Part shown: positions 55,269 to 58,893 of the stretch, piece after piece
Numbering within the stretch: the stretch's first letter is position 1
Layout: every line of letters begins with the position of its first letter
NCBI GenBank assembly: GCA_902469555.1
Contig: CABRDB010000020.1
Span: 19,882-83,881, forward strand
Source of the DNA: an uncultured Collinsella sp.
Lineage (GTDB): Bacteria; Actinomycetota; Coriobacteriia; Coriobacteriales; Coriobacteriaceae
DNA: 64,000 bases
Reading direction: 5' to 3'
Position numbers and translations under genes: made by a program
The notes under the pieces: model-generated
What the model was told of the DNA's origin: nothing
What the model saw: the letters and a program-made list of their open reading frames with translations, nothing else
Database searches by the model: none

Positions 55269-56501
55269 GTGGCCGTTACCGCGCTGTACGTGCATGTGCC
55301 GTTTTGCGCCCAAAAGTGCCGGTACTGCGACTTTGACTCGCGCAGTTTTGCTCCGTGCGACCTGAGCGCTGCGCTCGATGTCTATTTTGAGCAGTTGTAC
55401 GCGCGCCTCGATGCTTTTGGCAAGGCTGGGGCCCTCGACCAGATCCGCACCGTCTATGTTGGCGGCGGTACGCCGTCGCTGGCGGGGGAGCGCCTGGTGG
55501 AGCTGGCGCGGCGTATTCGTGCGTGGTGCGCCCCCGTTGAGTTTACCTGCGAGGCCAATCCCGAGTCGCTGACCGCCGAGCTTGCCGCTGCGCTTGCCAA
55601 GGTTGGTGTCACACGCGTCTCTCTGGGCGTGCAAACGCTCGATAACACCGAACTTACCGCCATCGGCCGTATTCACGATGCCGATCGGGCGCTCGCCGCC
55701 ATCGCGACGGTCAAGAACGCTGGGCTTGACGTGTCGTGCGACCTTATGTGCGGACTTCCCGGGCAGACCGCAGCGAGTTGGAAGCGCACGCTCGATGGCG
55801 TGCTGGCGGCGGCTCCGCATCATGTTTCGGTCTACCCGCTCACGCTTGAGGAGGGGACGCCCCTTTATCGCATGGCGTGCCGCAACGAGTCGCTCGAGCC
55901 TGATGAGGATTTTCAGGCCGCCTGCATGGATGTGGCGCGTGAGCATCTGGGTGCGGCCGGTTATCACCCCTATGAGGTGGCAAGCTACGCGCTCGACGGC
56001 CATGAGTGTGCCCATAACATTGCCTACTGGACCGGACGGGGCTACCTGGGCCTGGGTCGTTCTGCCGCGGGCATGCTCGACGCCGAGGATTTCGACCGTC
56101 TTGCAGGTTTGTTCCCCGGCGTGTCTTCTCGAGGCGATTCGTGTCGCGTGCGTCTGGTGCAACGTAACGATGACGCGACGGCGTTCGAGGCCGAATATCT
56201 GTCGCAGCGTGAGGCTGCGGCTGAAGACCTGATGCTCGCTTGTCGCATGACGCGTGGTATTGCGTCCGATCTGTTGGTTCGTACGGCTTGTGTCATCCCA
56301 ACGGGCGAGCTGACAGCTGCTTGCGATCGCGCGCTCGAGTTGGGCCTTGTCACTTGGGTGCCCGAGACGCTCGGGGTCCATGAGGGACCTTTCACTTCGG
56401 CAGATGTCGTCGCGGGCTATGTTCGAGCTCGTCTGGCGCCGACACACTTGGGCTGGCTCGATGGAAATGTTCTGTTCGAGCTGTTTTGGGATCTAGCTTA
56501 G
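55269..56501 (+). CDS. hemW: HemW-type radical SAM haem chaperone
   Basis: HemW is related to coproporphyrinogen dehydrogenase HemN but delivers haem. The radical SAM cluster is HVPFCAQKCRYCDFDS (CxxxCxxC) near residue 13; YVGGGTPSL, then RVSLGVQTLDNTEL, and DLMCGLPGQT are the core motifs. A HemN C-terminal domain follows. The GTG start and N-terminus lack the second Cys of the HemN CxxxCxxCxC motif (here CDF), as in HemW. The 410-residue length is normal. Confidence 0.93.
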   Translation: MAVTALYVHVPFCAQKCRYCDFDSRSFAPCDLSAALDVYFEQLYARLDAFGKAGALDQIRTVYVGGGTPSLAGERLVELARRIRAWCAPVEFTCEANPESLTAELAAALAKVGVTRVSLGVQTLDNTELTAIGRIHDADRALAAIATVKNAGLDVSCDLMCGLPGQTAASWKRTLDGVLAAAPHHVSVYPLTLEEGTPLYRMACRNESLEPDEDFQAACMDVAREHLGAAGYHPYEVASYALDGHECAHNIAYWTGRGYLGLGRSAAGMLDAEDFDRLAGLFPGVSSRGDSCRVRLVQRNDDATAFEAEYLSQREAAAEDLMLACRMTRGIASDLLVRTACVIPTGELTAACDRALELGLVTWVPETLGVHEGPFTSADVVAGYVRARLAPTHLGWLDGNVLFELFWDLA

Positions 56502-56559
56502 GCCGCTCGGGTAGAATTACCGGAATATATACGCTGCTGTGAGCAGGAGGTTGCCGCGC

Positions 56560-57663
56560 ATGGCGACGATGAACGAAAAAGATTATTACGAGATTCTGGG
56601 TGTCTCCAAGGACGCCACCTCGCGTGATATTCAAAAGGCCTTTCAGCAAAAGGCCCGCAAGCTCCATCCGGACGTCAACAAAGAGCCGGATGCCGAGGAA
56701 AAGTTTAAAGAGGTTTCCGAGGCCTACGCCGTGCTTTCGGATGAACAAAAACGTGCGCGCTACGACGCCATGCGTTCCGGCAATCCCTTTGCCGGTGCTC
56801 CTACGGCTTCGCCCTATGGTGGCGGCTACGCCGGCAGCACGGGCTATGGCAATCCCTTTGAGGGCGGCTTTCCCTTTGGTGGCGCCTGGGGCCAGCAGCG
56901 TCGTGGGCAGGCTGCCTACAATCCCGAGAACGGCGCCAATGTGGTCGTCGATATCAAACTCGACGCCAAGGAGGCCAAGGGCGGTACCCGCAAGACCGTC
57001 CGCTACACGCGATTCGATACTTGTGGTCACTGCGGCGGCTCGGGCTCCGTTTCGTCTGAGCATGCCCATACCTGCCCAAGCTGTGGCGGCCGCGGCCACA
57101 TCGACGTTGACCTGTCCTTCCTGTTTGGTGCGGGCACGTTCCAGTCGGTCTGCCCCGAGTGCGGCGGTTCCGGTAAGGTCGTGGCCGACCCCTGCCCTGA
57201 TTGCGGTGGCAGCGGTCGTACTCGCGTAACCTCCGAGCAGACGATTGAGTTTCCTGCCGGCACGCACGATGGCGACGAGGTCCGCATTAGCGGCATGGGT
57301 CATGCTGGCACCAACGGTGCCGCGGGCGGCGACCTGGTCGGCCGCGCCCATGTTGAGGCCGAGCGCTTGGAAGGCAAAGCTCGTACCGGTTTTTACCTGA
57401 TGGGCATCGTGGCGCCGTTTTTGGTACTCTCGGCCATCTCGGGCGTGTTCTCGGCCTTTGCCGTGATGTGCTTTATTCCGTTTACCATGGGCCTGTTCAT
57501 GGTGCTTTCGGACGGTGTGCTTCATCGCAGTCTGCTGTGGTGGAAGCGCGGCGCGATGCAGTTTGCCAACGGTTTTGCCAACGGCTTCATGTTCGCGCTC
57601 GTGTCGGTTTGGTTCGCGAGCTGCTCGCAACGGGCCATGCTTTCGCCGTATCAAATGCAATAA
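56560..57663 (+). CDS. Membrane-anchored DnaJ-like protein (J domain, zinc repeats, C-terminal membrane segments)
   Basis: The 367-residue protein starts as a normal type A J-protein: J domain at 7-72 with HPD at 36-38, a Gly/Phe-rich linker at about 80-125, and four zinc repeats between about 155 and 228 ([32 protein letters not shown]). The first C-terminal beta domain ends with [17 protein letters not shown] and [13 protein letters not shown]. From residue 277 the second substrate/dimerisation domain is replaced by hydrophobic segments ([50 protein letters not shown]). ATG 56560 has GCAGGAGG upstream. It should recruit DnaK to the membrane. A second, canonical dnaJ follows. Confidence 0.85.
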
Positions 57664-57744
57664 CATCAAACCCTCTGTTTGCGGTCGGCCCAGCTTGGGT
57701 ATAGGACGCACTGTGACAATAATGAAAGTCGGAAGGATTCGGTC

Positions 57745-58893
57745 GTGTCGGAAAATAGGGATTACTACGAGGTACTTGGCGTCGACAAGGATGCCGACGC
57801 GCGGACGATCAAGCGCGCGTTTCTAAAGAAGGCCCGTACCGTACACCCGGATGTTTCGGACGACCCCGAGGCCGAGGCCAAGTTCAAGGAACTCAACGAG
57901 GCCTATTCCGTTCTTTCCGATGAGCAGAAGCGTGCCAATTACGATCGCTTTGGTACCGCCGATGGCCCTGGTGGCTCCGGCTATGTCGATATCAACGATA
58001 TCTTTGGCGGTATGGGCATGGATGACCTGTTCTCGTCATTCTTTGGCGGCGGCGCCGGCGGTGGTGCCCGCAGCCGGCGCGAGCGCCGTCGCGGTCGCGA
58101 TATGGCCATCTCGCTTTCGGTGACGCTCGAGGAAGCTGCGCTTGGCTGTAAAAAGACGATCAGCTATGACCGCCTTGCTCCCTGCGAGGATTGCAACGGT
58201 ACGGGCAAGGCTGACGGTGCGACCGAAAAGCAGTGCAGCCGCTGCCACGGCACGGGCTATGTCACCACGGTCCAGCGCTCTTTTTTGGGCCAGGTCCAGT
58301 CCTCTTCGCCTTGCCCCGACTGCCACGGCGAGGGCACAGTCATCGATCATCCCTGCGAGACCTGTGACGGCCAGGGCCGCACGCCTTCGCACGAAAAGAT
58401 CGATATCGATATTCCCGCCGGCGTCTCGACCGGTCGCCAACTGCGCGTGAGCGGCTTTGGCGAGGCCGGCCTTCGCGGTGAGCCCTCGGGCGACCTGATC
58501 GTCAACGTGCGTGTCGCCGACCACGAGCGCTTTAAGCGCAATGGCGACGATCTGTACCTGGTGAGCGATATCTCCATTGCGCAGGCCGCGCTCGGCTGCG
58601 AGATCGAGGTCGAGGGCATTATGCCCGACGAGGTCGTCAAGGTGTGCGTCCCCGCTGGCACGCAGTATGGCGACACCGTCAGCGTCAACAATTTCGGCAT
58701 GCCGCGCATCGGCGGTGGCGGCTCACGCGGTCGACTGGTCGTGCAGCTGCGCGTGGTCGTTCCCACGAACCTTTCCAACAAGCAGCGCGAGCTGCTCCGC
58801 GCTTTTGCCGACGAGATGGGCGATGACGTCGCTTCCGGCAAGAAGTCGGTAACCGATCGTATCAAGAGCGCCCTCGACGATATCCTCGATTAA
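57745..58893 (+). CDS. dnaJ: Chaperone protein DnaJ
   Basis: A 382-residue type A J-protein stimulating DnaK. J domain at 5-68 with HPD at 34-36, Gly-rich linker (SFFGGGAGGGARS), zinc domain with CEDCNGTG, CSRCHGTG, CPDCHGEG and CETCDGQG, and both C-terminal domains (IPAGVSTGRQLRVSGFGEAG; LVSDISIAQAALGCEIEV). GTG 57745 follows GGAAGGA. The usual upstream hrcA-grpE-dnaK genes are not here. A possible stress-type promoter (GTTT-N16-GGGTAT, 57677-57702) lies in front. Confidence 0.95.
   Translation: MSENRDYYEVLGVDKDADARTIKRAFLKKARTVHPDVSDDPEAEAKFKELNEAYSVLSDEQKRANYDRFGTADGPGGSGYVDINDIFGGMGMDDLFSSFFGGGAGGGARSRRERRRGRDMAISLSVTLEEAALGCKKTISYDRLAPCEDCNGTGKADGATEKQCSRCHGTGYVTTVQRSFLGQVQSSSPCPDCHGEGTVIDHPCETCDGQGRTPSHEKIDIDIPAGVSTGRQLRVSGFGEAGLRGEPSGDLIVNVRVADHERFKRNGDDLYLVSDISIAQAALGCEIEVEGIMPDEVVKVCVPAGTQYGDTVSVNNFGMPRIGGGGSRGRLVVQLRVVVPTNLSNKQRELLRAFADEMGDDVASGKKSVTDRIKSALDDILD

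Follow-up and report, generated by a model that had tools for sequence, protein, structure and literature searches.

Class A (type I) DnaJ combines a J domain, a Gly/Phe-rich linker, a four-repeat zinc domain and a C-terminal beta domain I with a beta domain II, a dimerisation domain and a tail. DjlA of E. coli is membrane-bound, with its anchor at the N-terminus and its J domain at the C-terminus. In PMC8215388, the beta domains are described as holding the client sites and the zinc finger as taking part in substrate binding; DjlA is given as a DnaK co-chaperone, and E. coli DjlB and DjlC as class C proteins that are tail-anchored in the plasma membrane and assigned to HscC. According to PMC13254874, DjlB and DjlC carry HPE. 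The actinobacterial proteins DnaJ 2 and DnaJ 2B are presented in PMC12799103 as dnaJ duplicates, the zinc finger having been lost from DnaJ 2B; neither “membrane” nor “transmembrane” occurs in the main text of that paper (0 counts).

Here, we analysed a window, by which we mean the whole stretch of 64,000 nucleotides from an uncultured Collinsella sp., and describe in it the gene of a DnaJ-like protein of 367 aa with a predicted membrane anchor, for which we use the name TMJ. The first four of the modules listed above are common to class A DnaJ and TMJ. The latter differs in having a predicted membrane domain instead of beta domain II, the dimerisation domain and the tail, and the absence of domain II and of the dimerisation domain means that it is not a class A member. 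DjlB and DjlC are anchored at the C-terminal end, where TMJ has an anchor that is predicted and consists of three helices; they carry HPE, whereas TMJ has HPD (69/69 sequences) together with a zinc and a beta domain. In DjlA, the order is the reverse of that in TMJ, whose predicted anchor is C-terminal and whose J domain is N-terminal. Identification of TMJ as a DjlA was rejected, the NCBIfam DjlA model giving an E of 0.033 and a score of only 13.8 bits, where the cut-off is 162. Like DnaJ 2 and DnaJ 2B as outlined in their source, TMJ appears to be a dnaJ duplicate, but it retains the zinc finger lost from DnaJ 2B. The bacterial membrane J proteins considered here, DjlA, DjlB and DjlC, are class C types, while TMJ appears to be derived from DnaJ and keeps its client-binding modules. 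No description of a TMJ-type DnaJ was found in listings of the open literature. With a probability of roughly 0.7, we consider TMJ to be a membrane-tethered J-domain co-chaperone of DnaK that arose by dnaJ duplication in the Coriobacteriales.

Architecture of TMJ

All coordinates below refer to the + strand of the window unless stated otherwise. The TMJ gene, delineated by its open reading frame, Pfam matches and relatives, occupies positions 56560..57663, as the preliminary description correctly had it, with the ATG at 56560 and the stop codon at 57661-57663; a Shine-Dalgarno-like AGGAGG (56545..56550) is read nine bases before the ATG. The J domain (residues 8-69, 56581..56766; Pfam DnaJ, 1e-25) contains HPD at residues 36-38 and is followed by the Gly/Phe-rich linker (residues 70-121, 56767..56922), which was recognised by direct reading and has low model confidence. 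No DIF motif was seen by eye in this linker, while the neighbouring DnaJ has one. The C-terminal beta domain I, supported by Pfam and by the structural model, spans residues 122-266 (56923..57357) and accommodates the inserted zinc domain with its four CxxCxGxG repeats (residues 155-219, 57022..57216; Pfam DnaJ_CXXCXGXG, 1.7e-13).

The resemblance to the DnaJ family ends after residue 270. Pfam DnaJ_C matches TMJ with its first half only (residues 129-266, profile positions 2-73 of 152), and the bacterial DnaJ model TIGR02349 (DnaJ_bact) aligns only over its positions 1-260 of 354, its 247 bits falling short of the cut-off of 377. Instead of beta domain II and the dimerisation region, TMJ has about 95 residues with three predicted transmembrane helices. 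A tblastn search with domain II of the neighbouring DnaJ as a query revealed no remnant of this domain in 57221-57760. Immediately behind lies a canonical full-length dnaJ (57745..58893, 382 aa from a GTG), recognised by Pfam and passing TIGR02349 at 394 bits (cut-off 377). These data bear out the preliminary description, which had reported an intact J domain, linker and four-repeat zinc domain, a switch after the first beta domain with loss of the second, and a canonical dnaJ directly downstream. The upstream neighbour is hemW (55269..56501; family model and gene order). On the opposite strand, an open reading frame of 439 aa (56392-57711, strand -) spans the entire TMJ gene and is probably a mirror frame of GC-rich coding DNA.

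For comparison, we aligned 69 orthologues from two families, denoted f1 and f2. The former includes Coriobacterium glomerans (P0069) and Collinsella; the latter includes Olsenella (the Olsenella locus L139 is 99% identical to an f2 copy) and is thus Atopobiaceae. A further Coriobacteriales family (P0123) is denoted f5, and f3 is taken for Eggerthellaceae. All eight zinc cysteines are invariant in the 69 aligned f1/f2 orthologues (69/69), as is HPD (69/69).

The C-terminal tail is a predicted membrane domain

AlphaFold2 modelling of TMJ with the 69 aligned orthologues (mean pLDDT 78.9, pTM 0.50, linker unordered) predicted three helices in the tail, in agreement with conservation: helix 1 at residues 273-294 (57376..57441), helix 2 at 299-317 (57454..57510) and a long helix 3 at 325-365 (57532..57654), whose membrane part would comprise about 335-356 and contains G338xxxG342. 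The pLDDT of these helices was 70-96 by ten-residue block. When the tail was folded alone with 25 sequences, the same three helices appeared with a mean pLDDT of 87.3 and a pTM of 0.74. The three membrane segments proposed in the preliminary description are thus recovered by modelling both in the whole protein and in the isolated tail, whereas hydropathy alone (19 residues, threshold 1.6, 24 rows) gave for the window TMJ one merged stretch, 276-321, corresponding to helices 1 and 2, with helix 3 below the threshold; helix 3 passed it in 20/24 rows scanned. A lack of predicted membrane helices, which the preliminary description had named as refuting its view, was thus not observed in the models. 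The tail has no Pfam match and no clear match among solved structures.

The distribution of charges over the 69 sequences is consistent with a membrane domain of defined orientation. Charged residues make up at most 6% of rows per column in 277-316 and 335-353, and Lys or Arg occupies positions 323, 329 and 330 in 81-96% of sequences. The mean number of K+R is 3.6 in the loop 317-334, 0.06 in 295-300 and 1.1 at the C-terminal end. By the positive-inside rule, this distribution would place the J domain inside together with the WWKRG motif (residues 327-331, 57538..57552), which is marked by conservation and loop charge as a basic loop before helix 3, and would leave the C-terminal end outside.

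Particular residues of the tail are strongly conserved: G277, F278, G282, P286, F287, W327, W328, G338 and C355 are found in 96-100% of the rows. No variation occurs at Gly282, Gly338 and Cys355, and almost none at Gly277 and Gly311; W327 is present in 69/69 sequences, and 99% have A, G or S at position 342. As read from these residues, a GxxxG-like face of the tail could pair helices, and the anchor itself may dimerise via GxxxG, so that losing the soluble dimerisation domain need not make TMJ monomeric.

Distribution and selection

Whole-protein searches found TMJ near full length in 41/43 genomes of the same genus; in the other two, one (G033, 72% complete) yielded only the ordinary DnaJ and one (G043) only TMJ fragments. 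In two of the 41 matches (G023 and G025), a stop was signalled within the aligned region; in G023 it is the end of the TMJ protein, after the conserved Cys. The Collinsella homologues P0019 and P0062 are 69 and 66% identical to TMJ.

A tail-only profile search of 396 genomes of the class gave matches at E <= 0.01 in 179. Of these, 174/396 belong to f1 (61), f2 (111) and f5 (2), with E from 6e-41 to 1.4e-7; the others (three in f3, one in f11 and one in f23) had E of 0.001-0.01, and the four of these five that were re-searched were all short partial matches. The same domain order, which the preliminary description had suggested looking for in other Coriobacteriia, is thus represented by strong tail matches in three families of Coriobacteriales. 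Of 396 genomes in a phylum sample, the search matched 23 from f1/f2 and, weakly, two others. Among the f3 genomes, 59/60 had a single DnaJ match at E <= 1e-30, which ended at residues 262-271.

Over residues 1-268, dN/dS of TMJ was 0.033-0.187 in 12/12 pairs. Purifying selection also acts on the tail in ten of the twelve pairs (0.028-0.338), while the other two have relaxed tails (0.557 and 0.605). The preliminary description had named a frameshift in relatives as the sign of an ordinary truncated dnaJ; no such frameshift emerged from the 41/43 genomes matching over nearly the whole length, and this agrees with the low dN/dS and the missing remnant. Taken together, the preserved frame, the conservation across three families, the purifying selection and the absence of a domain II remnant indicate that the tail is more than a chance extension. 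In one locus of the same genus (L155, genome G043), the TMJ gene is broken, its pieces lying in different frames.

Proposed function and alternatives

Membrane tethering of DnaK activity would be the most economical function of TMJ, as inferred from its sequence and predicted fold. Most likely, TMJ would recruit DnaK to the membrane's inner face and hold clients there by its zinc and beta modules. The invariant HPD and zinc cysteines and the retention of beta domain I support its assignment as a DnaK co-chaperone. Everything from the J domain to beta domain I, including the linker and the zinc domain, would be cytosolic, as suggested by the positive-inside rule and by the site of DnaK, while the helical hairpin and the third helix would anchor the protein in the membrane. 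The WWKRG loop would then lie on the inside and the short C-terminus on the outside. Hydrophobic clients at the membrane, for which nascent membrane proteins, secretory precursors and damaged cytosolic loops are candidates, would be bound by the zinc domain and beta domain I, and the J domain would hand them over to cytosolic DnaK. More tentatively, the membrane domain with its conserved small-residue helix faces might stand in for the soluble dimerisation domain or bind a partner in the membrane. Duties in the cytosol would fall to the ordinary DnaJ encoded next to TMJ. Matches to HSP70 at E <= 1e-10 numbered one in 6/7 f1/f2 genomes and four in one (G003), so that the DnaK partner is probably common to TMJ and the ordinary DnaJ. 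Against the co-chaperone reading count the lost docking residues described below, the two relaxed tails, the position of helix 3 under the hydropathy threshold and a gene neighbourhood of housekeeping type that points to no membrane partner.

Probably, two to three related families, which include common gut bacteria (Collinsella, Olsenella), have one branch of their protein-folding machinery attached to the membrane. If so, TMJ would represent a naturally separate membrane branch of the DnaK system, through which the DnaJ parts required for membrane-protein quality control could be studied directly; with TMJ and dnaJ side by side, deleting one gene at a time would tell the membrane duties from the cytosolic ones.

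A narrower form of the membrane-tethered co-chaperone, compatible with it, is an adaptor dedicated through its membrane domain to one partner complex, such as the translocon, an insertase, FtsH or a transporter. Conservation of particular tail residues at 96-100% seems to exceed the needs of a bare anchor and argues for this possibility, which we nevertheless regard as somewhat doubtful: no partner gene is linked to TMJ, and the housekeeping context (lepA, a dus-like gene, hemW, an mtaB-like gene and phoH, recognised by eye except hemW) names no membrane partner.

The J domain itself bears on a second alternative, in which TMJ holds clients at the membrane mostly independently of DnaK and its J domain is a weak or regulated docking site. 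For the comparison, we used what we take to be the residue numbering of E. coli DnaJ, and equivalents in TMJ were set by position relative to HPD and by the ungapped helix against solved DnaJ. According to PMC8215388, the basic J-domain residues of E. coli DnaJ docking on DnaK are R22, K26, R27, K48 and K51. In TMJ, the R22 equivalent (residue 25) is Q in 52/69 and R in 17/69 rows, the R27 equivalent (residue 30) is Q in 59/69, and the K26 and K51 equivalents are Gln29 and Ser53 in all f1/f2 rows (69/69 each). Several basic docking residues are thus lost, and binding or activity of DnaK may be weak or regulated; the lack of a visible DIF motif in the linker points the same way. On the other side, HPD, Phe28, Lys50 (the K48 equivalent) and other J-domain residues are invariant (69/69), a constancy that would make little sense if TMJ worked with no Hsp70. 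Moreover, position 29 is Arg or His rather than Gln in the two f5 rows, and the ordinary DnaJ of f1, f2 and f5 itself has Leu at the K26 equivalent in 27/31 cases. Largely DnaK-independent action thus appears unlikely. The same ordinary DnaJ keeps Lys at the R27 equivalent in 27/31, and f3 DnaJ has Arg at the K26 equivalent (15/15); both copies have therefore been altered in f1 and f2. The nearest genome (G001) encodes a third J protein (C28 18417-18734, in a 327-aa open frame), matched over residues 6-113 only and located about 1 kb after an HSP70 match (C28 15572-17353).

The invariant Cys355 (57622..57624; 69/69) lies in a lipobox-like setting in 62/69 sequences, as scored with what we take to be the PS00013 pattern. 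The residue at -1 is Ser in 62/69 and Arg or Gln in 5/69; Phe stands at -3 in 47/69, and 6-22 residues remain after the Cys. Both f5 rows retain the Cys, one of them with Asn at -1. Among other cysteines following hydrophobic stretches in mechanically called reading frames of the window, the pattern occurs at 3/18, and matches to the Lgt and LspA families were present in 10/10 genomes searched. These features are suggestive of lipidation but do not amount to evidence for it. It is quite improbable, in our judgement, that helix 3, WWKRG and Cys355 form an internal lipoprotein signal at which Lgt lipidates Cys355 and LspA perhaps cuts, and the same low odds apply to TMJ as a polytopic-membrane class of DnaJ whose last helix doubles as such a signal. 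A lipobox is normally N-terminal and Phe at -3 is unusual in it, so that both the internal position and the Phe are atypical; the residues Arg, Gln and Asn at -1 also speak against a signal, and the 69 rows are not independent but share common descent. Were lipidation nonetheless to occur, the lipid on Cys355 would couple the state of the cytosolic chaperone machine to the membrane's outer face, and a cut by LspA may release a short lipopeptide of about 7-23 residues.

Finally, that TMJ is a decaying or frameshifted dnaJ copy with an accidental hydrophobic tail, a view for which the one same-genus genome with a broken gene might speak, has practically no chance of being right and is refuted by the same architecture in 41/43 genomes and three families, the low dN/dS and the missing domain II remnant.

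Origin and gene order

In a quick tree computed for 80 rows from the region common to them (SH-aLRT, no bootstrap), all 31 TMJ rows (11 from f1, 18 from f2 and 2 from f5) fell into one clade with a long stem of 0.93 and an SH-aLRT of 100, in which f5 branches beside f1+f2. The ordinary DnaJs of f1 and f2 cluster together (SH-aLRT 87).

The usual gene between hemW and dnaJ is hrcA, encoding the heat-shock repressor. It directly precedes dnaJ in 30/30 f3 loci fetched, and the order hemW-hrcA-dnaJ was found in 8/8 loci chosen by an HrcA match. In the window, hrcA is missing from 55269-58893, between hemW and dnaJ. In the f1/f2 loci retrieved in full, dnaJ comes after TMJ in 20/20; hemW lies upstream in 15, and the fetched stretch of the other 5/20 contained no hemW match. 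Three of the 20 loci (L061, L062 and L072) have hrcA between TMJ and dnaJ, each with hemW upstream. In the class sample, HrcA was present in 8 f2 genomes and was not found in any f1 or f5 genome. The simplest history suggested by these gene orders is that the TMJ copy was inserted between hemW and hrcA, and that hrcA was then lost in most lineages. Such a loss would concern lineages that carry TMJ.

One genome (G304) carries two tandem TMJ copies (L152 3909-6329). The first ~50 residues of the second copy equal those of the dnaJ behind it, and its start looks as after gene conversion or misassembly.
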